Positions 2,857 through 22,639 of a stretch of DNA of 22,735 nt are shown piece after piece (the first letter of the stretch is position 1; each line of letters starts with the position of its first letter). Under the pieces are notes generated by a model. It saw only the letters and a list, made by a program, of their open reading frames with translations, made no database searches and was not told where the DNA came from. The position numbers and the translations under genes were made by a program. Source of the stretch: a virus; the IMG/VR virus record IMGVR_UViG_3300028536_000160, positions 1-22,735 of that record. One strand, 5' to 3'.

Positions 2857-3552
2857 ATGAAAGCATTTCACGGCAAGCAGGAAGTCAAGGATTTCTACAT
2901 TGCTCGCATCAAAGCTCATCGCGCAGCGGATGAGATCGTTAAAGGCCAATACTGGGAAAAAGATGACGATGGCGTATTCAGAGGTTGCGCGATCGGCTGT
3001 TCGCTGCATACTGCAGACCACAATGCCATCGTGAAAGAGTGGGACTTTCCGCTTTCACTGGGATATCTGGAAGATTGCATCTTCGAGAATCTTCCTCAAG
3101 AGCTAGCTCTGGACTGGCCTTTGCGTTTCGTTTCCGCGCCTAAACCAGGAAGCGATTTATCGCATATAGTCGATCACTTCCTGATCTGGGTGCTCACCGA
3201 TGGCGTACATGGAGTAATCCGTTTTGCACAGAAAGACAATGAGCGTGCTGCCATTCAAGCAGTCTCCGATTTGTATGTAAGAAAAGCTGCAAATGATAAT
3301 CCCAGCCCGGAAGAGTGGGATGCTGCCGAGGATGCTGCCGGGGCTGCTGCCAGGGCTGCCGAGGATGCTGCCGGGGCTGCTGCCAGGGCTGCCGAGGATG
3401 CTGCCGGGGCTGCTGCCGAGGATGCTGCCAGGGCTGCCAGGGCTGCCGGGGATGCTGCCGGGGCTGCTGCCGGGGCTGCTGCCTGGGCTGTCAGGGATAC
3501 TGCCTACATTTCATTCGCCGACAAACTTATCGAACTTATGAAAGCAGCGTAG
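2857..3552 (+). CDS. Phage protein with conserved N-domain and alanine-rich repeat tail
   Basis: 231 residues. Residues 1-145 form a globular domain (MKAFHGKQEVKDFYIARIKA; GCAIGCSLHTADH; FENLPQELALDWPLRF) that I recall from other uncharacterised phage proteins. Residues 153-212 are an Ala-rich repeat with units like EDAAGAAARAA (11 residues), followed by a short amphipathic C-terminus (FADKLIELMKAA). In related proteins the tail often also consists of Ala/Arg/Trp repeats, so a long helix is likely. The function is unknown. The DNA coding for the tail is a 33-base tandem repeat, so tail length may vary by slippage. A GAGG stands about 8 bases before the start. Confidence 0.75.
   Translation: MKAFHGKQEVKDFYIARIKAHRAADEIVKGQYWEKDDDGVFRGCAIGCSLHTADHNAIVKEWDFPLSLGYLEDCIFENLPQELALDWPLRFVSAPKPGSDLSHIVDHFLIWVLTDGVHGVIRFAQKDNERAAIQAVSDLYVRKAANDNPSPEEWDAAEDAAGAAARAAEDAAGAAARAAEDAAGAAAEDAARAARAAGDAAGAAAGAAAWAVRDTAYISFADKLIELMKAA
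3328..3420 (+). repeat. 33-base tandem repeat coding for alanine-rich helix
   Basis: The unit starts GAGGATGCTGCCGGGGCTGC and runs 33 bases. Two complete copies (3328-3360, 3361-3393) and a partial third (3394-3417) are nearly identical; shorter variants of GCTGCC(A/G)GG continue to about 3494. Because each unit is a multiple of three, copy-number change would keep the frame. Confidence 0.85.
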
Positions 3553-3554
3553 CC

Positions 3555-3719
3555 ATGAAAATCACAAAAGAATATCTCAAAAGCATAGTCGAAGATATAA
3601 ACCGGAAAAATGTGTTCTTTCTTGACTCATATCAACGCGGGCGCATGAGCTTGGCGTTAGATTTGATCGAACTTCTAGTTCTGAGCGAGGAAAATCATGA
3701 GCAAGCAATCGAATACTGA
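3555..3719 (+). CDS. Small hypothetical protein
   Basis: 54 residues starting MKITKEYLKSIVEDINRKN, helical and charged, with the central DSYQRGRMSLALDLIELL. The start lies two bases after the stop of the alanine-repeat gene. The same frame is open upstream through the repeat tract, but that part (Gly/Cys/Arg-rich) is an artefact of the repeat. Its 3' end overlaps the next gene by 23 bases. Unknown function. Confidence 0.6.
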   Translation: MKITKEYLKSIVEDINRKNVFFLDSYQRGRMSLALDLIELLVLSEENHEQAIEY

Positions 3720-4257
3720 CGGCATCTCTCTACTGCATTGGTTAGAAGCAAGCATCATCATCTTGGCAATTCTCTTCTGCGGCCTCAAGGCAAGCGCGGA
3801 GGACCTTCCCGAGTCTCCGGTGCCCACTGCGGCAGTCAAATCGCTACAGCGGCCTGTTCCGGCCTTACGCAAAGGCTTCTACGCGAATAGCTTCAACCGC
3901 AAGCTGGCTATCGCTGACCTTGGAGTACGGCTGGGAGACGCCATCACCACTTCCGTGAATCTCCACGATTCCTGCCGCTGCATGCACGAAGAGCAGTTGC
4001 CCAAAGCGCTGGCAAGCTCTACCTGGGGAATGGTGGGATACAGTCTGGCGGTCAGCGCTGGAATTCAGGCCGGGAGCGCTTATCTCTGGAACCATCATCA
4101 TCGCAAGATGGCGCGCACAGCCATGATCCTCGACATCGCGCTGGACGGCGAAGCTGATGTTCACAATCTGGTTGTCTACGCGCGGCGGTCTGTGCCAACT
4201 CCGGCAACAACTCATCCGCCAACCATCGTCTTTCATCCAACTGGGAGCAGCAAATGA
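3697..4257 (+). CDS. Exported or membrane protein, unknown function
   Basis: 186 residues with an N-terminal hydrophobic segment (about 15-30, containing ASIIILAILFCGL) and a plausible signal-peptidase site after ASA at residue 34, so it is likely secreted or anchored. A second hydrophobic stretch lies around 110-131 (WGMVGYSLAVSAGIQAGSAY). The motif LGDAITTSVNLHDSCRC followed by a small hydrophobic region and HHHHRKMAR resembles uncharacterised membrane proteins I recall as frequent in Acidobacteriota, which hints at host origin. GAGGAAAATC precedes the ATG. It could modify the host envelope during infection, but this is a guess. Confidence 0.7.
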   Translation: MSKQSNTDGISLLHWLEASIIILAILFCGLKASAEDLPESPVPTAAVKSLQRPVPALRKGFYANSFNRKLAIADLGVRLGDAITTSVNLHDSCRCMHEEQLPKALASSTWGMVGYSLAVSAGIQAGSAYLWNHHHRKMARTAMILDIALDGEADVHNLVVYARRSVPTPATTHPPTIVFHPTGSSK

Positions 4258-12725: not shown

Positions 12726-13586
12726 ATGAGAAAGCATAAGGAAACACGCGAAGAAAAAGCAGACCGCTTTAAGCAGGAGAGCGGTAAGGAATTTCATACT
12801 TCCGATTGTTCTACTAGCATAGCTCCCGCAGAAGAACCGGGGCCATGTGATTGCGATGCAGATGATCCCGCTACCGGCTGGATAAATATGGTGATGGGTT
12901 GGGCACGTATAAATCATCTCGAATCTGACACCGTTATATCGGCATTGTGCCGTGCAAAAGATTTTTTGGCGGCCGATAAAGCGCGAGTGCGAGAGCTTGA
13001 AGCGGAACTAGAGACTGCAAAAGATTTCTTATCCAACATATCAGTAGAACGTGACAATGCTGAAGTGCATGCTTCCGAGCTTGAGCAACAGTTGAAAGAG
13101 CAAAATGTGGAGATAGGGAGATTGAATTCTTGCAAGACTACCTACGATACCAATCTTTCTACTCTTGCCAGCAATCATGCTATTCAAATCCGAGAGCTAA
13201 CTAATGAAGCGCGGCAGGCTCATGCAGATGGCCGCAAAGCTGGGCTTGAGGATGCTGCGTGCTACATCGAAAAAGCTAACGATGTGGAAGACCGAATTCG
13301 CATAGCAGAAGATATCCGCGCACTCGCCAATTCAGAGACTGGGATGTCTGCCTATTATGGCCAAGTGGATGTGATGATTGCCCGATGCCGATGGACCACT
13401 AAGCCTATGGAATCATGCGATTGTGGAGATTGCAAGACTAACAAGGTTAAGCCAGGAGAATGGATACAGCCTGTGCGCAAAGGTTATCGCATGGAATGCT
13501 GCGATTGCGGCCTCGTACATCGATTGAACTTCCGAATCCGCAAAGGTAAAACTCAGTTTCAGGCATTTAGAGAGGATCAACCATGA
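12726..13586 (+). CDS. Coiled-coil protein with C-terminal zinc-ribbon-like domain
   Basis: 286 residues. The start at 12726 has GAGGAG four bases upstream; an in-frame ATG at 12690 is weaker. After a Lys/Glu-rich start and a Cys-containing segment (PGPCDCDADDP), residues 78-135 form a coiled coil (KARVRELEAELETAKDFLSN). Residues 150-205 are helical, and the C-terminus has CDCGDC (231-236) and CCDCGLVHRLNFRIRKGK (258-275), together a likely zinc ribbon. The last domain recurs as a stand-alone or fused module in phage proteins that I recall. Oligomerisation through the coil and metal binding are inferred; function unknown. Confidence 0.68.
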   Translation: MRKHKETREEKADRFKQESGKEFHTSDCSTSIAPAEEPGPCDCDADDPATGWINMVMGWARINHLESDTVISALCRAKDFLAADKARVRELEAELETAKDFLSNISVERDNAEVHASELEQQLKEQNVEIGRLNSCKTTYDTNLSTLASNHAIQIRELTNEARQAHADGRKAGLEDAACYIEKANDVEDRIRIAEDIRALANSETGMSAYYGQVDVMIARCRWTTKPMESCDCGDCKTNKVKPGEWIQPVRKGYRMECCDCGLVHRLNFRIRKGKTQFQAFREDQP

Positions 13587-14032
13587 AACCAATCATCATC
13601 GCGTTGCTGCTGGCGGGCACGGCGTGGGGGCAGCAAGCCGCTCATCCTGACCCTGTCCCAAGGGGATGGGCATTGATGCAGCTACCTGCGCCGGGCATGA
13701 ACAATCATGTCCTTGCAGGCCCGGAGGCCGGACCGATTGGATTTGCACGCGCCGACTACTACGAAGCCCATGAAGCTATTGTCAACGTCCTCGACCATGC
13801 TCAACTAAACAACGCCGAATGGGAGAACCTGTACTCGCTCGCGCATGCAGTCAACAATGTTTATCTATTCCTCGGCACAAGCAAGGCTACCGGGACGGAT
13901 GCGGTAAAGGCTAAGCTGGAACTTGAAGCGCTCCACATAGGCGAGAAGCTGGACAAGTACCATATCCCTACGCACGAAGAGGACATGGACGAATTGCTGC
14001 GCAAGATGGATGGCTGGGGAAAGAAGCTGTGA
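13583..14032 (+). CDS. Secreted hypothetical protein
   Basis: 149 residues with a clear Sec signal peptide (MKPIIIALLLAGTAWGQQ; cleavage probably before the Gln pair, AWG|QQ). The mature part is helical (YEAHEAIVNVLDHAQLNNAE; LELEALHIGEKLDKYHIP), with no known catalytic motif. Overlaps the previous gene by ATGA; last gene before the terminator. A periplasmic role, for instance in superinfection exclusion, is possible but not shown by the sequence. Confidence 0.7.
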   Translation: MKPIIIALLLAGTAWGQQAAHPDPVPRGWALMQLPAPGMNNHVLAGPEAGPIGFARADYYEAHEAIVNVLDHAQLNNAEWENLYSLAHAVNNVYLFLGTSKATGTDAVKAKLELEALHIGEKLDKYHIPTHEEDMDELLRKMDGWGKKL

Positions 14033-14693: not shown

Positions 14694-14954
14694 CTAGGTA
14701 ATAGGGTCCGGGGAAGTCAATGGCGTTTGATTCGGGAGAAGGTCAGCTACGGTGCTGGTATTGATGGGCATGCCGGAAGCCTCGGAATAGGCTGCCAGAG
14801 CTTTCGTTGCCAATGTGGAGAATAAGTCCACCAGTCCAGCCGCAGCGGTCGTTTCTAGTGCCACGCCAGGCGCAACAGCTCCGATTGTGGCGAGAATGGT
14901 ATCTGCAATGCCCTGAATCTCTGTGACGATGCTTGAAGCGGTATCTAGACTCAC
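14694..14954 (-). CDS. Hypothetical protein, 86 residues
   Basis: GTG start at 14954 with AAGGAGG six bases upstream, overlapping the stop of the lipoprotein gene. Sequence rich in Ala, Thr, Ile and Leu: TEIQGIADTILATIGAVAPG and GLVDLFSTLATKALAAYSEA. Moderately hydrophobic, it may be an amphipathic or membrane-associated helical hairpin. It follows the lysis genes but has no clear holin signature. Unknown function. Confidence 0.65.
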   Translation of the reverse strand: MSLDTASSIVTEIQGIADTILATIGAVAPGVALETTAAAGLVDLFSTLATKALAAYSEASGMPINTSTVADLLPNQTPLTSPDPIT

Positions 14955-15325
14955 TGGGTGCCTCCTTTGGCAGCATAAAGCGCCTTGATCTGCGCGATGA
15001 GTTGCGGTAATTTGACGAGAATTGCCGATACAACCTGCTGTTGCGCCGTAAGATCGCCGCTGGAGGCCTTCTGCGCCTTGTAATTCTCATAGACGATCAT
15101 GGCATTGACCGCATCAGTCTGAAGCTGTTTGGCCGCGTTAATTGCAGCATAGGACTGCGGCGTCTTTGGGATTGTGCCGGATTCATAATCGGCTTGAGCG
15201 GTATCGATTACGGCCTTCGATGCAGAGAGGGTTTGGAACGCCGACCTCTCCCAGGAGGTACATGCGGCCACGAAAAGGCATATCGCAATGAGTGAGATCG
15301 AGGTAAATCGATGTAGTGACCTCAT
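14951..15325 (-). CDS. Phage lipoprotein in the lysis region
   Basis: 124 residues with a lipoprotein signal peptide: MRSLHRFTSISLIAICLFVA then AC (lipobox FVAAC, lipidated C22; +2 Thr and so probably outer-membrane directed). The mature part is a long helix (AAINAAKQLQTDAVNAMIVY; LPQLIAQIKALYAAKGGTQ). The position right after endolysin and holin-like genes makes an outer-membrane spanin-type role conceivable, although the usual Pro-rich stretch and a paired inner-membrane spanin are not seen. The start overlaps the holin-like gene's stop (ATGA); the longer open frame upstream to 15391 lacks support. Confidence 0.7.
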   Translation of the reverse strand: MRSLHRFTSISLIAICLFVAACTSWERSAFQTLSASKAVIDTAQADYESGTIPKTPQSYAAINAAKQLQTDAVNAMIVYENYKAQKASSGDLTAQQQVVSAILVKLPQLIAQIKALYAAKGGTQ

Positions 15326-15504
15326 TTCGCGGTATCCTTGGCCAGCAGTCCAGTAAGTCCAGAGACGATGGCTGTTGCGGTGAGAATCCACTTCTCATTT
15401 GCGCTGCCCTGATTAAGCGCGGCCAGAATAACTCCGGCCACGCTCAGTATGCCGCCAACCGTGGTCTTCCAGTTGGCTCCGATACGATTGATGATTTCGT
15501 TCAT
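15322..15504 (-). CDS. Holin-like small membrane protein
   Basis: 60 residues with two membrane helices: TTVGGILSVAGVILAALNQ (14-32) and WILTATAIVSGLTGLLA (39-55), a short polar link and a Lys-rich end (KDTAK). This is the size and topology of class II-like phage holins, which make the inner-membrane hole that releases the endolysin. AAGGAG lies before the ATG, which overlaps the endolysin's stop. Similar small proteins of unknown function exist near phage lysozymes, so 'holin' is a functional inference. Confidence 0.65.
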   Translation of the reverse strand: MNEIINRIGANWKTTVGGILSVAGVILAALNQGSANEKWILTATAIVSGLTGLLAKDTAK

Positions 15505-15974
15505 ATTTGGCTCCTTAAGATTTCTACATTGTCAGCACAGCGAGTTTTCACCTGACCGCACCATCTGCTGTTCTCCAACTCTGCGGCAGCTTGATTGTAG
15601 TCTTTGGCCTCAAGTGCGGCGCGGAACTTAACAAATTGTGAAAACTTAGGCGATCCGAGATTAAAGCATAAGTCAACCACTACAGCCTGCACTCTATCGG
15701 GCAGGATATCGAAGTTCTTGACTAGCCCTTTTGAGGCGAAGATTGCAGCGTTTACCGTGTCGTCTAGCAGGCGGTCGATCTCTATATCAGCGAGGTATTC
15801 GCCATTGCGCACAGCATTGTAGTCAAGTCCAGCAAGGGCTACCGAAGAAGCGGCAAGAGCAGAATCGAGATTGAATCCAACCCCTACCGTCAGATGTCCT
15901 GTCGTATCCACATAGGCCGTATGGCGACGGCCTTCATGGTGTTCGATCAGGGCAGTGATGGCATCGCGGTCCAT
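15501..15974 (-). CDS. Endolysin, T4-type lysozyme (GH24)
   Basis: 157 residues; cleaves peptidoglycan glycan strands at lysis. The catalytic region HHEGRRHTAYVDTTGHLTVG shows the GH24 triad E14, D23 and T29 with the same spacing as in T4 lysozyme (9 and 6 residues), followed by VGVGFNLD. Further on DRVQAVVVDLCFNLG and KFRAALEAKDYNQAAAELEN are typical helices of the second lobe. No signal peptide or SAR-type membrane segment is seen, so export must depend on a holin. TAATG overlap with the Pro-rich gene upstream and ATGA with the holin-like gene downstream. Confidence 0.92.
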   Translation of the reverse strand: MDRDAITALIEHHEGRRHTAYVDTTGHLTVGVGFNLDSALAASSVALAGLDYNAVRNGEYLADIEIDRLLDDTVNAAIFASKGLVKNFDILPDRVQAVVVDLCFNLGSPKFSQFVKFRAALEAKDYNQAAAELENSRWCGQVKTRCADNVEILRSQI

Positions 15975-16588: not shown

Positions 16589-19051
16589 TCAATTTCCTGT
16601 ACAAGTAAAACCTATCGGGTCAGTTGCAATGAGTGGTAACGCAATAATGATAAACTGACTTCCCGTCACTTTATTCAGATAAAGCGATGTAGCATTCGTC
16701 GTTCCGTTCGGAGTGTTATTGTGCGACGCAAATTGACACTCATATGTAGTGTCGGAAAACGCCGAAGCTGCCGAAAGAGTAACAGTGGTTTGATTGTAAG
16801 TAGGACTGGCAACTCCCGGAAGCGCAGCGGATACTCCAGTAACGATCTTGGCTCCAGTGCGCACCGTATTCGAGCATGTGCCTGTAATTCCACAATATAC
16901 AGAAGTGGGATGATTCGAAACTGTGAGATTCGCTACCGGAGTGGTCGAGGTTACTGCCAACGGCGCTGTGCCTGTGGCGATGTTCGAAGTAAATGCTGTG
17001 GCAGTCTCAGCGCCTCGCGTTATCTGATTGCCGCTCACATCCCAGTAAGCCGAAGCATGGCAGGATGTGTAGTTGGTGAACGTGGGGCAGTTAAGAACTG
17101 CCGCCGCTCCGGATGTTACTAAGGCGTCCACTATGACGGCATGATCATTGTCATATGCCGCCGCCGCCCCTTGAAAGCTGTTACTCCCGTTATTGTTGAA
17201 GAGAATGCCGGGAACGATGCTTGTAGCCGCTGGATTGCCGATTCCCACCCCATAAATCTGCCACCAGTTTGCGAATCCCGATGCCACGGGGTTGGCCACC
17301 ATAGGACTATTGATGATCGGTCCCGAGGGCTGAAGATTCTGATATTGCGCGGAACTCGCGCCCTTTCCTGCAAGATTTGGATAGAAAATGTTCCATCCGG
17401 CGGTTGACGCCGAGTTTTCTACAGTCTGAACTTCGTGCCAATATCCGCAATCGTTCGGATGCAGTGGCTGATTTCCTCCGGGGCATCCGGAATTTGCCGC
17501 TCCGTTGGCCATGTCGGTTGACGTGTTGACCCCAGGAGTCCCAGTGCGCATATCGGCAAAGATCACGTTTAGGTGATCTGCGATCGCCGTGTTCACCATA
17601 TTTACAGCAGCAGTGTTATATGCCGCAGTGGCAGCTGAAAGCGCATCGGCAAATTGCCGCAGCACGCCTTCCATGATGACGTAGGATGGTGGATTCACAA
17701 AGACAGCCGAAGGCGGGGCATCGATACCCTTGATCGCTACAATGTTCCCTGCGGCAGTTGTAGAGCTTACCGTGAACACAACCACGTGCGAAGTGGCGGG
17801 GCTCACGGTATATTCCTGTCTCATCACTTCGCCACGCGAGTCGGGAAGAGTTTGTCCGTTACATCCAAAATTGTTGAATGTTGTGCTGGCATTGCAGACA
17901 TCATTCACCGGCGTTCCGTCTACGGTTGCCGTAAACGTACCAGCGCTGGTATTGCCAGCCACGTAAACAATACCGATTTTGGTCTGCGCCGTAGTCGTCG
18001 CAATCGTGCATGTTAGTGTGCTTCCATTAGTGGTGTTTTGCAGAGTCGCATAATTCAATGCAGCCGCATTCATTGCCGGGCCGATAGTGGGATTAACCCA
18101 TGATCCGGCAGCCGTGCATGCGCTAGCCTGTATGCGGCTCGCCGGAGGTAAGCCAACATAGTAAAGTATGGCGTTCAGCGCATTGGTGTAGTTGTTGATC
18201 CCTCCAGTCGTATTGCCAACAAAATTGGCATCGTTGATGCCGCCTTTCATCACTATCTTTGGAATACGATTTGGAGATGCCGCGCCGGGAACGAAGTAGG
18301 TATAGAGATTGTCTCCCACGTTGGACATGTAAAAGCCCGACACGCCATAGTCGATTGCCTGCCCTAAGCTGTCAGCAGCCAAGAGGGAGAATTCGCAGTT
18401 AGCAGGGGTAGAAGGACCCGAGCCATTGGGACAGGCTATGGTGCTGTCGCCGAATCCGTAAAGAATCCCGTAGTTATAACCCTGTGAGAGGTTAAGAGCC
18501 GAATTCATCTGCGGAGTAGTGGCATTGGCAATCCCACCTGTGCCGCTTCCAGCAAGCACAGAAGTACCAGTAGTTTCATTCAGATTGCTATTGCCGATCG
18601 TGTTGCTTGTCACCCATTTCGTTACCGCGCCAACTGTAGGCGTGCCTGCCGCTGACAAGGTAGTGGAAGGGAGATCGGATGCCCCAAGCACGCGGAAGAA
18701 TGGCGCTGCATTTCCGCCGGAAGTTGGGCCAGCCAATATAGTGTTTGCGGGCACGGAATTGTAGGTAAATGTCGGAACCGTTGTGGGATTGGCGACGCTG
18801 AACAGGCCGGACCCATCGACTACGCTCGTTACAGTGCCACTTCCACCACCACCGCCTGCAATCTGGCCCCACGTACCGCTCTGGCAGCTATATAGCGTGC
18901 CGGATGGAGTCACTAATCGAATGGGCAGGTTAGCAGAGCACGCGCCGCTGGGAGCCGATGGAGAAGTAATTATCTGGGGCGGATAATAAACTTGCGCATG
19001 GCAATTCAGCAAGCCGACGATGAAAGCAAGAAAATAGATGATTTTTTTCAT
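16589..19051 (-). CDS. Tail fibre with SGNH/GDSL hydrolase domain and signal peptide
   Basis: 820 residues. Begins with a Sec signal peptide (MKKIIYFLAFIVGLLNCHAQ). Next a small Cys-containing module (LVTPSGTLYSCQSGTWGQI), a Gly linker and the phage-tail motif SGTVTSVVDGSGLF with ANTILAGPTSGGNAAPFFRV, widespread in phage tail fibres. The SGNH hydrolase follows: YGFGDSTIACPNGSG (S203 nucleophile), KGGINDANFVGN (N273), LHPNDCGYWHE (H531). Between blocks III and IV sits a beta-rich insertion (about 305-450). The Asp usually three residues before the His is Gln528. The C-terminal 250 residues are Thr/Ser/Ala-rich beta structure. Probably deacetylates or de-esterifies host surface polysaccharide. 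The start overlaps the tailspike gene's stop (ATGA). Confidence 0.83.
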   Translation of the reverse strand: MKKIIYFLAFIVGLLNCHAQVYYPPQIITSPSAPSGACSANLPIRLVTPSGTLYSCQSGTWGQIAGGGGGSGTVTSVVDGSGLFSVANPTTVPTFTYNSVPANTILAGPTSGGNAAPFFRVLGASDLPSTTLSAAGTPTVGAVTKWVTSNTIGNSNLNETTGTSVLAGSGTGGIANATTPQMNSALNLSQGYNYGILYGFGDSTIACPNGSGPSTPANCEFSLLAADSLGQAIDYGVSGFYMSNVGDNLYTYFVPGAASPNRIPKIVMKGGINDANFVGNTTGGINNYTNALNAILYYVGLPPASRIQASACTAAGSWVNPTIGPAMNAAALNYATLQNTTNGSTLTCTIATTTAQTKIGIVYVAGNTSAGTFTATVDGTPVNDVCNASTTFNNFGCNGQTLPDSRGEVMRQEYTVSPATSHVVVFTVSSTTAAGNIVAIKGIDAPPSAVFVNPPSYVIMEGVLRQFADALSAATAAYNTAAVNMVNTAIADHLNVIFADMRTGTPGVNTSTDMANGAANSGCPGGNQPLHPNDCGYWHEVQTVENSASTAGWNIFYPNLAGKGASSAQYQNLQPSGPIINSPMVANPVASGFANWWQIYGVGIGNPAATSIVPGILFNNNGSNSFQGAAAAYDNDHAVIVDALVTSGAAAVLNCPTFTNYTSCHASAYWDVSGNQITRGAETATAFTSNIATGTAPLAVTSTTPVANLTVSNHPTSVYCGITGTCSNTVRTGAKIVTGVSAALPGVASPTYNQTTVTLSAASAFSDTTYECQFASHNNTPNGTTNATSLYLNKVTGSQFIIIALPLIATDPIGFTCTGN

Positions 19052-22000
19052 TTACCTACCCAGGCAGAAGATTGACAAACATAAAGCGTATTAGGAGCAC
19101 CGCCAGTATTCGAATAAAGCGACCCGCTCACGCATGGCGGAGTTGGCGCAGAAGCTCCAAATGTCCAGCTTGGACCGGAAGTACCCAAAGTAATTCCGGC
19201 CAGGAAATAATGCGGGACATTCGAGATCACGGCATTAGGCTCCCAGGTCAGCTCACTCACCATGCCGCCACCGCCAGCTGCATTCTGCGCGCGTAGATTC
19301 CCAGCGACAGATACTTGGCCCCCAGAGGGAGTTGATATTTGCTGAGCCACGATATCTACGCCAGTGATGAAGCCATCGGCGTTCGTGAATCCTTGCCCGG
19401 CTGCATCGTAGACTTCAAAGGAGATCGGGCCGCAGAGCGAGCCGTTAGTAAGCCTGCCCGGAGTTCCCTGCGTGCCACTGGCGCAGCGGATACGGTATTT
19501 GGGAATCGCAGCATAGCCAGTGGACTGTTTGATGGTCATGTTCTGGTAATCGACTGAGGCCCCCATGATCCCGCCCGGATCGAGATAGTCAGTAATGCCA
19601 TTCTCGTAGATATTTCCTTGCTGTGTGAAGGGGAAATTCCCGGTCAAGGCCGATTCGTAGAGCACCGCCGAAGTGATGCTGGCATCGGTCGTCGAGAATT
19701 TGTTGTTGTGGATGTCTATCGACTGCAGAACTTGCGGGATGAATGAGAATGGATGCAAATCGATGGCAGAATGTATGCCCTGAATCGGGTTGATGTTTGT
19801 GAATTGCACGTTGTCCACAGTGACATGATCGCAGTTGCTGATAAGCATGCGCACGCCGACCATATGGCCATGGCTTACGCTGACATCCTTACAGGTAGCT
19901 GGCTGGCTGCTTGCGCCTACTTCTAATAGCTGATCGAAGCCAGAGATATCCTGCGGCGTCACTCCGGGAGCTACTGCCGTAGGATCGAACTCGAAGTTGC
20001 TCAGTTGGTTGTGCTGCGGCATAACCGTAGTAACGCCTACAATGTCGAAGCCGATGAAGCCGAACTGGGGGCCATTTGCGCCCTTGATAACGATCTGGTC
20101 CGCATCGCAGCTTATGCAGTCGGCCATATCGATGCCGCCTGCCGTAGCACGCGGTGTCTTACCCCAGTATGGACGTCCTAGCAATGTCATGCGCGACAAG
20201 TGGCAGTTCACGCATCTACCCGTCGCAAATGAGTCAGAGTAATCGGAAATCAGGCCATCTGAGACAAAGACATTCGTAGTCGGATTGAGGATTACCTGTT
20301 GTTGCGGTACGCCGCTTGCCCCTGAACCACCTGTTCCGCTCAGCGCGACAGTAGGAGCAGGATCGCCAGCCACGTAATATCCAGTGCCCTTGTTCGTCAT
20401 CGTGGTGCCAATCCACACGCCGTTTCCAATTCCAACCGAACAGGTAGCAGGCGGAATGGTAATCGAGCCGCCACCGCCCATTGTGCAAGTTGGCGCGGTA
20501 TAGCTAGACGTCACATTCGTGAATTGAATCTTCTGGACATAGAAAGTTACAACCAGGGTCAACTGCGGGGCAGTTACCTGCGTGCCGGAAGTCAGATTAA
20601 GCTGATAGGTAGTCTGCGATGCGAAATAGCCATCGCCGCCTACAAGAGTTCCCGTCTGGCATCCGGTAAGCGCGCCAGCGGCAAACTGCGCTGGGCAAGT
20701 AGCTCCTGTGCCGCCTAACTGTGTCAGAACAAGCGTGTCGGTATTGGCATAGTTCTCGCCAGCATTCCTCACACTGCATCCGGCCCCTACACCACCAGGG
20801 CCGACCGTGAGCACAACGAAAGCCCCTGTACCCGTTGCCGAAGTTGGCGTGCCTGTCACATAACCAGAGATGTATCCTGTACCACCAGTAAATGAGCATG
20901 AAGTAAGTCCGCCACCGCTATAAACCCCAATAAGTGTTGCGCCTGTGCCGGGCTGATTATTCCAAGTCAAAGTCCCAGCAGGAGAGCCTGTAAATGAACC
21001 GCCATTCTGAGTCGTAACCGAAGTACCCTGACCCGAAATGGTTGCTGATGCAGTTGTGTTCTTTCCAGTAGCGTCGGTAATCTTGATCCACGGCGGTCCA
21101 TTGAAATCGTGCGCTGTGGTCAGCAGGGTCAAATTGTTCGGCACGCCATTCGCGATAATAGGTGTTCCTGTGGCCTGTATGCCGCCTGCATGGGGTGCAG
21201 AATAAGTTAATACAGCAGTACCATTGGTCGGATATCCTGTGCCGCCATTGGCAATAGAGTTTCCTCCTATGCCGGGCGCAAAAACACCACCTTCATCAAT
21301 CGATCCCGCTTCGCATCCATAGTTAGGGTTTACTGTATCGCAGTCTTCTACCTTGAAGTTATGGACCCAAAGATTATTGACTGAGCGAAAGTCAAAAGGA
21401 CGGCTCATCCCATGCTCAAATACCACATTCCACATGCGGATATCGCCTGTGGATGCTCCGGTAGGATCGCTTTTTACTTCGGCATAGAAGCAGGTAAGCT
21501 CGGGGCAGGTCTGATGTGTTCGGTTTCCATCGAAATAAAGGTCATGCAGCGAGATATATTTCGAGGGCTGGCGTACATAGATGAGAGTTTGGATATTCGT
21601 TCCATCGCCACGCTTGAAGCTGCAAACATCGCCTTGCGTTCCCCCAAAAATCGAGCTGTTATCGCCTTGGATATCAATAACGCCTGCTGTCTGGCCCTGA
21701 TCTTGCCCAGTCATCGTAAAGGTGGACCCGGAGCAATCAAGGGCAGTCGTGGCCGGAAGGATAATCTGCGAAACGATGTTCCCATTCAGGCCGCGCGTGA
21801 CGACTAAACCACCAGCCCCAGCGGCGGTGATGGCATTGGCAATCTTCTGTCCGGCATCCGCGCCAGTTTCCGTTGCCGCATAGACTACCTTGGGAGCAGA
21901 ATTTCCCCCTGTGCCGGATTGGAGGATGTCATAAGGTCCAAAGGTTCCCCATGAGGCCTTAACAGTGTAAGTTATGTGCGTCTGAGTGGCGGCGTTATAC

Positions 22001-22320
22001 CAAAATCCAAATGTCCCCTGCAATCCAGTCGTCGAGATACATGCAGTGCTTCCAGGTGCCGTCAATGGCGCTGTAGATGGGCAAGGAGTGCTCAGAGAGG
22101 AGTCGGTATAGGTGATGATCTTATTGGTGCAAACGCCTGCGGTGATGGCGGCAGGGAAGCCGCAGACCGATACATTTGCATTGGTGACGGCAAGCACATT
22201 TGGGAGTGAGCCGGGCGGGACAGGGTTAGAAGTCGTTGTGACCGTAGGAAGGTCATACCGCGCTGGTATTTGGGCAGCCGCAAGCGGAGAAAGCAATAAA
22301 AGCAGGATGAGTTTTTTCAC
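19048..22320 (-). CDS. Beta-helix tailspike-like protein with signal peptide
   Basis: 1090 residues from a GTG at 22320 with AGGAG five bases before. The N-terminus is a textbook Sec signal peptide (MKKLILLLLLSPLAAAQIP). Residues 30-140 are a beta-rich attachment domain. From 145 a pectate-lyase-type right-handed beta-helix begins (DAGQKIANAITAAGAGGLVV; YISLHDLYFDGNRTHQ), pauses at about 345, and resumes at about 685-910 (VFVSDGLISDYSDSFATGRC; DNVQFTNINPIQG; IDIHNNKFS). The interruption (355-680) is Gly/Thr-rich with GGTGY repeats. The C-terminus carries a CQSxxW module (LYVCQSSAWVGK). Probably binds or degrades host surface polysaccharide. The catalytic residues are not identified. Confidence 0.82.
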   Translation of the reverse strand: MKKLILLLLLSPLAAAQIPARYDLPTVTTTSNPVPPGSLPNVLAVTNANVSVCGFPAAITAGVCTNKIITYTDSSLSTPCPSTAPLTAPGSTACISTTGLQGTFGFWYNAATQTHITYTVKASWGTFGPYDILQSGTGGNSAPKVVYAATETGADAGQKIANAITAAGAGGLVVTRGLNGNIVSQIILPATTALDCSGSTFTMTGQDQGQTAGVIDIQGDNSSIFGGTQGDVCSFKRGDGTNIQTLIYVRQPSKYISLHDLYFDGNRTHQTCPELTCFYAEVKSDPTGASTGDIRMWNVVFEHGMSRPFDFRSVNNLWVHNFKVEDCDTVNPNYGCEAGSIDEGGVFAPGIGGNSIANGGTGYPTNGTAVLTYSAPHAGGIQATGTPIIANGVPNNLTLLTTAHDFNGPPWIKITDATGKNTTASATISGQGTSVTTQNGGSFTGSPAGTLTWNNQPGTGATLIGVYSGGGLTSCSFTGGTGYISGYVTGTPTSATGTGAFVVLTVGPGGVGAGCSVRNAGENYANTDTLVLTQLGGTGATCPAQFAAGALTGCQTGTLVGGDGYFASQTTYQLNLTSGTQVTAPQLTLVVTFYVQKIQFTNVTSSYTAPTCTMGGGGSITIPPATCSVGIGNGVWIGTTMTNKGTGYYVAGDPAPTVALSGTGGSGASGVPQQQVILNPTTNVFVSDGLISDYSDSFATGRCVNCHLSRMTLLGRPYWGKTPRATAGGIDMADCISCDADQIVIKGANGPQFGFIGFDIVGVTTVMPQHNQLSNFEFDPTAVAPGVTPQDISGFDQLLEVGASSQPATCKDVSVSHGHMVGVRMLISNCDHVTVDNVQFTNINPIQGIHSAIDLHPFSFIPQVLQSIDIHNNKFSTTDASITSAVLYESALTGNFPFTQQGNIYENGITDYLDPGGIMGASVDYQNMTIKQSTGYAAIPKYRIRCASGTQGTPGRLTNGSLCGPISFEVYDAAGQGFTNADGFITGVDIVAQQISTPSGGQVSVAGNLRAQNAAGGGGMVSELTWEPNAVISNVPHYFLAGITLGTSGPSWTFGASAPTPPCVSGSLYSNTGGAPNTLYVCQSSAWVGK

Positions 22321-22327
22321 TTTTCTC

Positions 22328-22639
22328 CTAGGAAATTTGGCTGATTACGGTGTAAATGCTGTAGGTTGGCATTCCAGATGTTACCTTCGCCGAAATAGAA
22401 ATATCCATTGTCTGACGTGCTCGGATAAGCAATGCGGCTGACCACAAACCATTGTGCGATATAGATTGGGGGCCAAAATCATCCGTATAGCTCAACGTAG
22501 TTGCAATCCATCCACCATGATTTTCGATATAGGCTCTGATGAAAAATAGTCCATCTGCGGAAGGCGTATATAAGGCGGTATCTGGCAAATCTGCCGTCTG
22601 AGTGACGATGCTATTAGAGGCAACAATGGTTTCAGTCAT
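22328..22639 (-). CDS. Tail-associated hypothetical protein
   Basis: 103 residues starting MTETIVASNSIVTQTADLPD, with a beta-rich, jelly-roll-like pattern (LFFIRAYIENHGGWIATTLS; LIRARQTMDISISAKVTSGM). No signal peptide. Its ATG abuts the stop of the upstream partial gene (TAAATG), and the tailspike gene starts eight bases after it. Probably a minor tail or fibre-associated protein, by position only. Confidence 0.65.
   Translation of the reverse strand: MTETIVASNSIVTQTADLPDTALYTPSADGLFFIRAYIENHGGWIATTLSYTDDFGPQSISHNGLWSAALLIRARQTMDISISAKVTSGMPTYSIYTVISQIS

Follow-up and report, generated by a model that had tools for sequence, protein, structure and literature searches.

In the usual view, tailed phages finish their virions in the cytoplasm. 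The tailspikes of phage P22 can be added late and in vitro. In phage SU10, the genes for the long tail fibers gp12 and gp13 sit between those for the adaptor gp11 and the nozzle gp17, and the fibers dock via their N-termini (PMC9509320). The N-terminal domain of the PBR31 tailspike is an apparent virion-binding domain according to its authors (PMC10975493), and the Q-rule, in which Gln follows the SPase I cut at +1 and is cyclized to pyroglutamate, has been described as specific to Bacteroidetes (PMC5837995). Sec leaders on tail spikes were not reported in the literature that we searched, which is not proof of their absence.

We analyzed a viral IMG/VR record of 22,735 bp, hereafter the window, which is classed as linear, is probably a fragment and contains no adaptor, nozzle or other structural genes. 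Two large proteins of 1090 and 820 aa are encoded near one of its ends (Table 1); the genes for the holin-like protein, the lysozyme and the lipoprotein lie downstream of both on the same strand. Elsewhere in the window, a 231-aa ORF (2857-3552) contains tandem alanine-rich repeats of the DAAGAAARAAE type near its C-terminus, and a 586-aa primase/helicase-like protein had no match in a scan of the viral contig collection.

Table 1. Positions, strands and properties of the window features discussed in the text (^, predicted cleavage site)
Feature	Position	Strand	Remarks
Leader-bearing spike, 1090 aa	19048..22320	-	probable beta-helix; GTG start at 22320
Leader-bearing fiber, 820 aa, SGNH-type motifs	16589..19051	-	ATG start at 19051
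Predicted Sec leader of the 1090-aa protein, MKKLILLLLLSPLAAA	22273..22320	-	predicted cleavage before Gln17
Predicted Sec leader of the 820-aa protein, MKKIIYFLAFIVGLLNCHA	18995..19051	-	predicted cleavage before Gln20
AGGAG ribosome-binding site of the 1090-aa gene	22322..22330 (extent approximate)	-	
103-aa protein without leader	22328..22639	-	same operon, directly upstream of the 1090-aa gene
127-aa protein, one transmembrane segment	16142..16525	-	weakly holin-like
Phage lysozyme (endolysin)	15501..15974	-	Pfam E=4.9e-10; separate protein without leader
124-aa lipoprotein, LFVAA^C	14951..15325	-	adjoins lysozyme, lysis region
149-aa predicted exported protein, leader MKPIIIALLLAGTAWG^Q	13583..14032	+	leader also in G001
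186-aa protein, long n-region	3697..4257	+	failed the leader rule

Leaders were called by a simple heuristic rule that combines n-, h- and c-regions with the residues at -3 and -1, and whose background rate is 0.12% for internal segments and 3.9% for shuffled leaders. By this heuristic, both large proteins have the basic n-region, short hydrophobic core and small residues at -3/-1 of Sec/SPase I substrates and an A^Q site, with the predicted mature chains beginning QIPARYDL (1090 aa) and QVYYPPQI (820 aa). The GTG at 22320 is preceded by AGGAG at a distance of 4 nt, and the ATG at 19051 overlaps the stop of the preceding ORF by 4 nt, so the starts of both genes are well supported. The sequence-only reading of this DNA, which had described two large tail-type proteins with Sec signals, was therefore right about both ORFs and their textbook leaders. 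Of the three further export signals that it listed, the one of the 149-aa protein is clear and the 124-aa protein proved to be a lipoprotein; the 186-aa protein did not pass the rule and could be a signal anchor. One lysis-region lipoprotein, one exported protein without an assigned role and one doubtful case lend only weak support to the broader phage program on the host envelope that had been proposed.

Counterparts of the 149-aa protein occur in the relatives G001 and G004. The leader MKPIIIALLLAGTAWGQ is common to the window protein (13583-14032) and to its G001 counterpart (29575-30222), with apparently different mature sequences, and G004 carries a lipoprotein version, MKPIIIALLLAGTIGCA (24048-24500). 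This arrangement, a shared leader before apparently different mature parts, is the reverse of the pattern of the spikes described below.

Neither large window protein has a match in Pfam or PHROGs; PDB sequence searches, tblastn of both proteins against the phage collection and a peptide-pattern search of the viral contig collection for close relatives of the 1090-aa protein were also negative. For the SGNH label given earlier to the 820-aa protein, the GDS, GxND and DxxH-type blocks of that family were sought by eye, and the SGNH-type motifs GDS 201, GGIND 270 and HPND 531 are present; a G001 protein in the corresponding slot is a Pfam Lipase_GDSL (1.8e-8) with a weak C-terminal match to K1 lyase. 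A beta-helix had been proposed for the 1090-aa protein. It stays a putative fold, as the AlphaFold models on shallow alignments were poor (pLDDT 33). The spike in the same slot of locus L076 matches Pfam Beta_helix (1e-6) as well as a PHROG tail spike (3.6e-7).

Residues 97-680 of the 820-aa protein are 92% identical to a protein of G001 and G002. Over residues 145-1088, the body of the 1090-aa protein shares 77% identity with a protein of G001 whose N-terminal domain is different, and there is a further relative in G004. Although the N-terminal domain differs among these body relatives, an export leader still precedes it (MKKLLTLFLFVGSFAYGQ, MTKFAKVLLLLLFPCLALAQ, MKLFSRLLLIAAVVLGMAGNVHAQ). 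G001 is an SU10-like podovirus (SU10 portal, 1.3e-22; SU10 adaptor, 6.5e-7), and several small genes have a common order in G001 and the window, as judged by eye. Two of its leader-bearing spike genes lie between two adaptor-type genes (one strong and one weak Pfam match) and adjoin a nozzle-like gene; the L076 spike gene is likewise located between adaptor-type genes and next to a nozzle-like gene. Thus, the leader-bearing genes occupy the tail-fiber slot in both relatives. Near the G001 fiber gene, there is also a leader-bearing protein of ~260 aa that resembles a trypsin-type protease by eye (L002:5831-6613), and an ORF of G018 (14995-15780) has a similar N-terminus, also by eye.

An alignment-based scan with the nozzle-like protein yielded 78 viral loci and three genome loci, two of the latter in Acidobacteriota MAGs and the third on a 4.5-kb contig whose record is labeled Geobacter. 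Once near-duplicates had been dropped, the set of spike- or fiber-like ORFs with leaders numbered 28, including the two window proteins. Gln is found at +1 in 18 of these 28 (counted without a bonus for Gln), compared with 7/22 and 1/16 among the own proteins of two acidobacteriote MAGs. In the ~40-kb genomes, large spike-like ORFs occur as a single main ORF or in a short cluster, with leaders, and no other large receptor-binding candidate was seen. Leader-bearing and leaderless fibers coexist in G006, and several leader-bearing spike-type proteins are encoded in each of L085, L081 and the cultured phage Tunturi_1. The architecture that the sequence-only reading had proposed to seek in relatives is thus recurrent, and it extends to Tunturi_1, Tunturi_2 and Tunturi_4 and to acidobacteriote prophages.

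Two other features of these podoviruses were observed. ParA-like genes (ANQKGGCGKTTTTMNLAG) are present in several ~40-kb genomes (G014 34889, G015 38183, G020 2267 and G022 37233), which suggests a plasmid-like prophage state. Major head proteins of the phrog_1357 family (L035:5233-6495, L025:5241-6434, L125:2602-3840) have, from their predicted starts, an N-terminal extension of 60-80 aa that holds a transmembrane- or signal-like segment; the same extension is found in head-slot ORFs of L023, L026, L032, L034, L113 and L114 and is absent in L022 and Tunturi_3.

The relation between leader and mature protein is clearest in G014, G020 and G021. Their leaders of 36, 19 and 30 aa are 37-68% identical and their bodies 39-46% identical, whereas identity rises to 88-96% over the first 75 residues of the predicted mature chain, with conservation beginning at the predicted cleavage point. 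At the sequence level, this is the pattern expected of a conserved domain that follows a cleaved signal. Other pairs follow the same trend more weakly, and L131/L135 and L129/L125 are too alike to tell. An hhalign comparison of the N-domains of leader-bearing and leaderless fibers of this phage group, the window N-domain included, detected nothing. The leader-bearing proteins are also rich in cysteine, with a median of 2.03% vs 0.57% in leaderless fiber-like ORFs (Mann-Whitney p=2e-12), the latter being a class set by composition that takes in nozzle proteins. The 1090-aa protein has 26 Cys, of which 22 are conserved in all aligned relatives, and the 820-aa protein has 17. At the level of sequence, export is well supported.

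Cultured phages of Acidobacteriota include both designs. A tblastn search with the nozzle-like protein retrieved the Tunturiibacter phage Tunturi_3, whose fibers gp15 and gp18 have no leader and contain 0.2-0.85% Cys. The plaque-forming podovirus Tunturi_1 grows on strain X5P2, which is also the host of Tunturi_3, and its proteins gp12 (1190 aa), gp13, gp14 (annotated as a tail spike), gp16 and gp17 all carry leaders and have a Cys content of 1.3-2.7%; no large leaderless spike candidate was found in it. Tunturi_2 is nearly identical to Tunturi_1 in the spike region. A requirement for leaders throughout this host is ruled out by Tunturi_3, since leaderless fibers work there on the same strain and export is not required. 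In the siphovirus Tunturi_4, gp113 and gp114 carry leaders, and gp111 would gain one if it were read from an in-frame TTG further upstream; in the record of this phage (PP885687; gp111 at L196:32077-35172), this TTG gives MNRISKAIGLCALALSVGSSYGQTAAVK, comparable to MNRILKALSLCVLCLYVSASFGQTAAVK of gp113, and the annotated GTG start probably cuts the leader off. Among the annotated tail-fiber genes examined in part of the Tunturi_5 genome, none encodes a leader and the products are Cys-poor. A body segment is 50% identical between Tunturi_1 gp17 and Tunturi_4 gp114, in phages that are unrelated overall (PMC11924767). The text of the paper describing the Tunturi phages mentions neither signal peptides nor SDS-PAGE or mass spectrometry (PMC11924767).

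Acidobacteriote genomes encode tailspike-type proteins in which a leader of 21 to 26 aa stands ahead of a domain whose equivalent starts almost at residue 1 in the leaderless tailspikes of other phages. The domain behind MLRSTALGLALLLFAGWPAACA^Q in L213, which lies on a 6.4-Mb acidobacteriote contig, shares 52% identity with the PBR31 domain (E=6e-25) and 58% with the ctNMl277 domain (E=9e-30). Among the genes of the L170 prophage is one for a head-closure protein, by a PHROG match at E=7e-89. Part of a protein from an acidobacteriote genome matches a stem segment of the window's 820-aa protein at 49% identity (E=1e-10), and its surroundings hold phage-type genes and leader-bearing spikes; we therefore take an acidobacteriote to be the most likely host of the window phage.

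The sequence-only reading had rightly seen a conflict between export and membership in the virion, and had offered two ways out: secreted surface enzymes, or another purpose of the leader such as periplasmic assembly or anchoring. Our best reading, held tentatively and as a little short of an even chance, is that the proteins are virion spikes that are exported, oxidized in the periplasm and docked on the tail at or after lysis; we favor exported virion spikes because of the conserved mature N-domain, the SU10-like fiber slot and the fusion of leaders to tailspike N-domains in prophages. The two proteins would be receptor-binding, probably glycan-active tail spikes or fibers of a phage whose most likely hosts are Acidobacteriota. 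Late in infection, the spike would be exported through its cleavable Sec leader, and removal of the leader would expose Gln at +1. The cysteine-rich body would then oxidize, and presumably trimerize, in the periplasm. At lysis, freed virions would meet the periplasmic spikes and the mature N-domain would dock on the tail, which would place the final step of assembly outside the cell; any spikes in surplus may serve as free depolymerase. The predicted leader, the conserved mature N-domain, the enrichment and conservation of cysteines and the tail-fiber slot of the relatives all speak for this reading. Virion membership, inferred like cleavage, oxidation and late docking, is supported by synteny, common N-terminal domains and the lack of alternatives. 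If the spikes are both exported and part of the virion, assembly has to finish outside the cytoplasm. The leaderless fibers of Tunturi_3 and the presence of both fiber types in G006 count against the reading, as does the fact that, to our knowledge, the addition of Sec-exported spikes is not known from any tailed phage.

A serious, if rather unlikely, rival holds that the proteins are free secreted glycan hydrolases or esterases made from captured spike bodies and not virion parts. Such enzymes would remove envelope material or slime from the host, both ahead of lysis and at lysis itself, and thereby ease release or block re-adsorption to debris and superinfection. Sec leaders, cysteine richness and SGNH-type or Lipase_GDSL bodies would all suit them, as would the several copies per phage in L085, L081 and Tunturi_1, the leaderless fibers alongside in G006 and the protease-like neighbor of the G001 fiber. 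However, conserved mature N-domains with swapped bodies and the leader-tailspike N-domain fusions of prophages point to docking on the virion, and free enzymes would leave the ~40-kb genomes and Tunturi_1 with no other large receptor-binding candidate.

The leader could also stay uncleaved, as a hydrophobic N-terminal peptide by which the spike is docked or anchored, either in the virion or in the inner membrane. The long hydrophobic stretches of a few leaders (G021, G013) and the N-terminal docking of SU10 fibers would agree with such a peptide, which we nevertheless find improbable: the leaders vary in sequence and length ahead of a conserved mature domain, A^Q sites recur, cysteines are enriched, and closely similar N-domains work leaderless in other phages. 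An artifact, with leaders that are hydrophobic by chance or come from ORFs extended too far, is very improbable and largely refuted. The simplicity of the rule speaks for it, as does a 4-base Shine-Dalgarno match at just 13 of the 28 starts of the wider set (a mixed result; background 16%), but the AGGAG and the stop/start overlap in the window, the 0.12% internal-segment rate, the recurrence across unrelated phages and the GenBank starts of Tunturi_1 gp12, gp13, gp16 and gp17, which take in the leader, all argue against it.

Exported virion spikes would have a wider corollary, which we advance with still more reserve: many tailed phages of Acidobacteriota may assemble in two compartments, with cytoplasmic heads and tails and periplasmic disulfide-bonded spikes joined at or after lysis. 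Recurrent leader-bearing, Cys-rich spikes in a dominant soil phylum would mean either such compartment-split assembly or a large class of phage-secreted enzymes, and either outcome bears on host range, lysis ecology and annotation, where automatic start calls can strip a leader, as seems likely for Tunturi_4 gp111. The question is directly testable, as each design is found among cultured phages, including two that share a host strain.

Among known systems, secreted and SAR endolysins such as Lys44 of phage fOg44 are likewise phage proteins with a Sec signal (PMC6116005); unlike spikes, they are muralytic lysis enzymes. The Gln predicted at +1 in both window proteins, and in 18 of the 28 ORFs in all, recalls the Q-rule, although the hosts linked here are Acidobacteriota and not Bacteroidetes. 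With the gp12/gp13 fibers of SU10-type phages (Kuravirus), the proteins have in common the adaptor-nozzle gene slot, in G001 and L076, and a presumed receptor-binding role; SU10 fibers, however, are leaderless with 0.25-0.41% Cys, whereas the window and G001 proteins combine a leader with ~2% Cys. The P22/PBR31-type tailspikes share an N-terminal beta domain and a glycan-active body, and in acidobacteriote prophages this N-domain follows a leader, in contrast to PBR31, ctNMl277, DSL-LC05 and Vibrio 41E34.2, which start directly with the domain; the likeness concerns the prophage proteins, the window proteins not being assigned that domain. Finally, the spikes of Tunturi_1, Tunturi_2 and Tunturi_4, though without a clear sequence match to the window proteins, resemble them in having a leader and a cysteine-rich body, and their genes lie in the tail regions of phages that form plaques.
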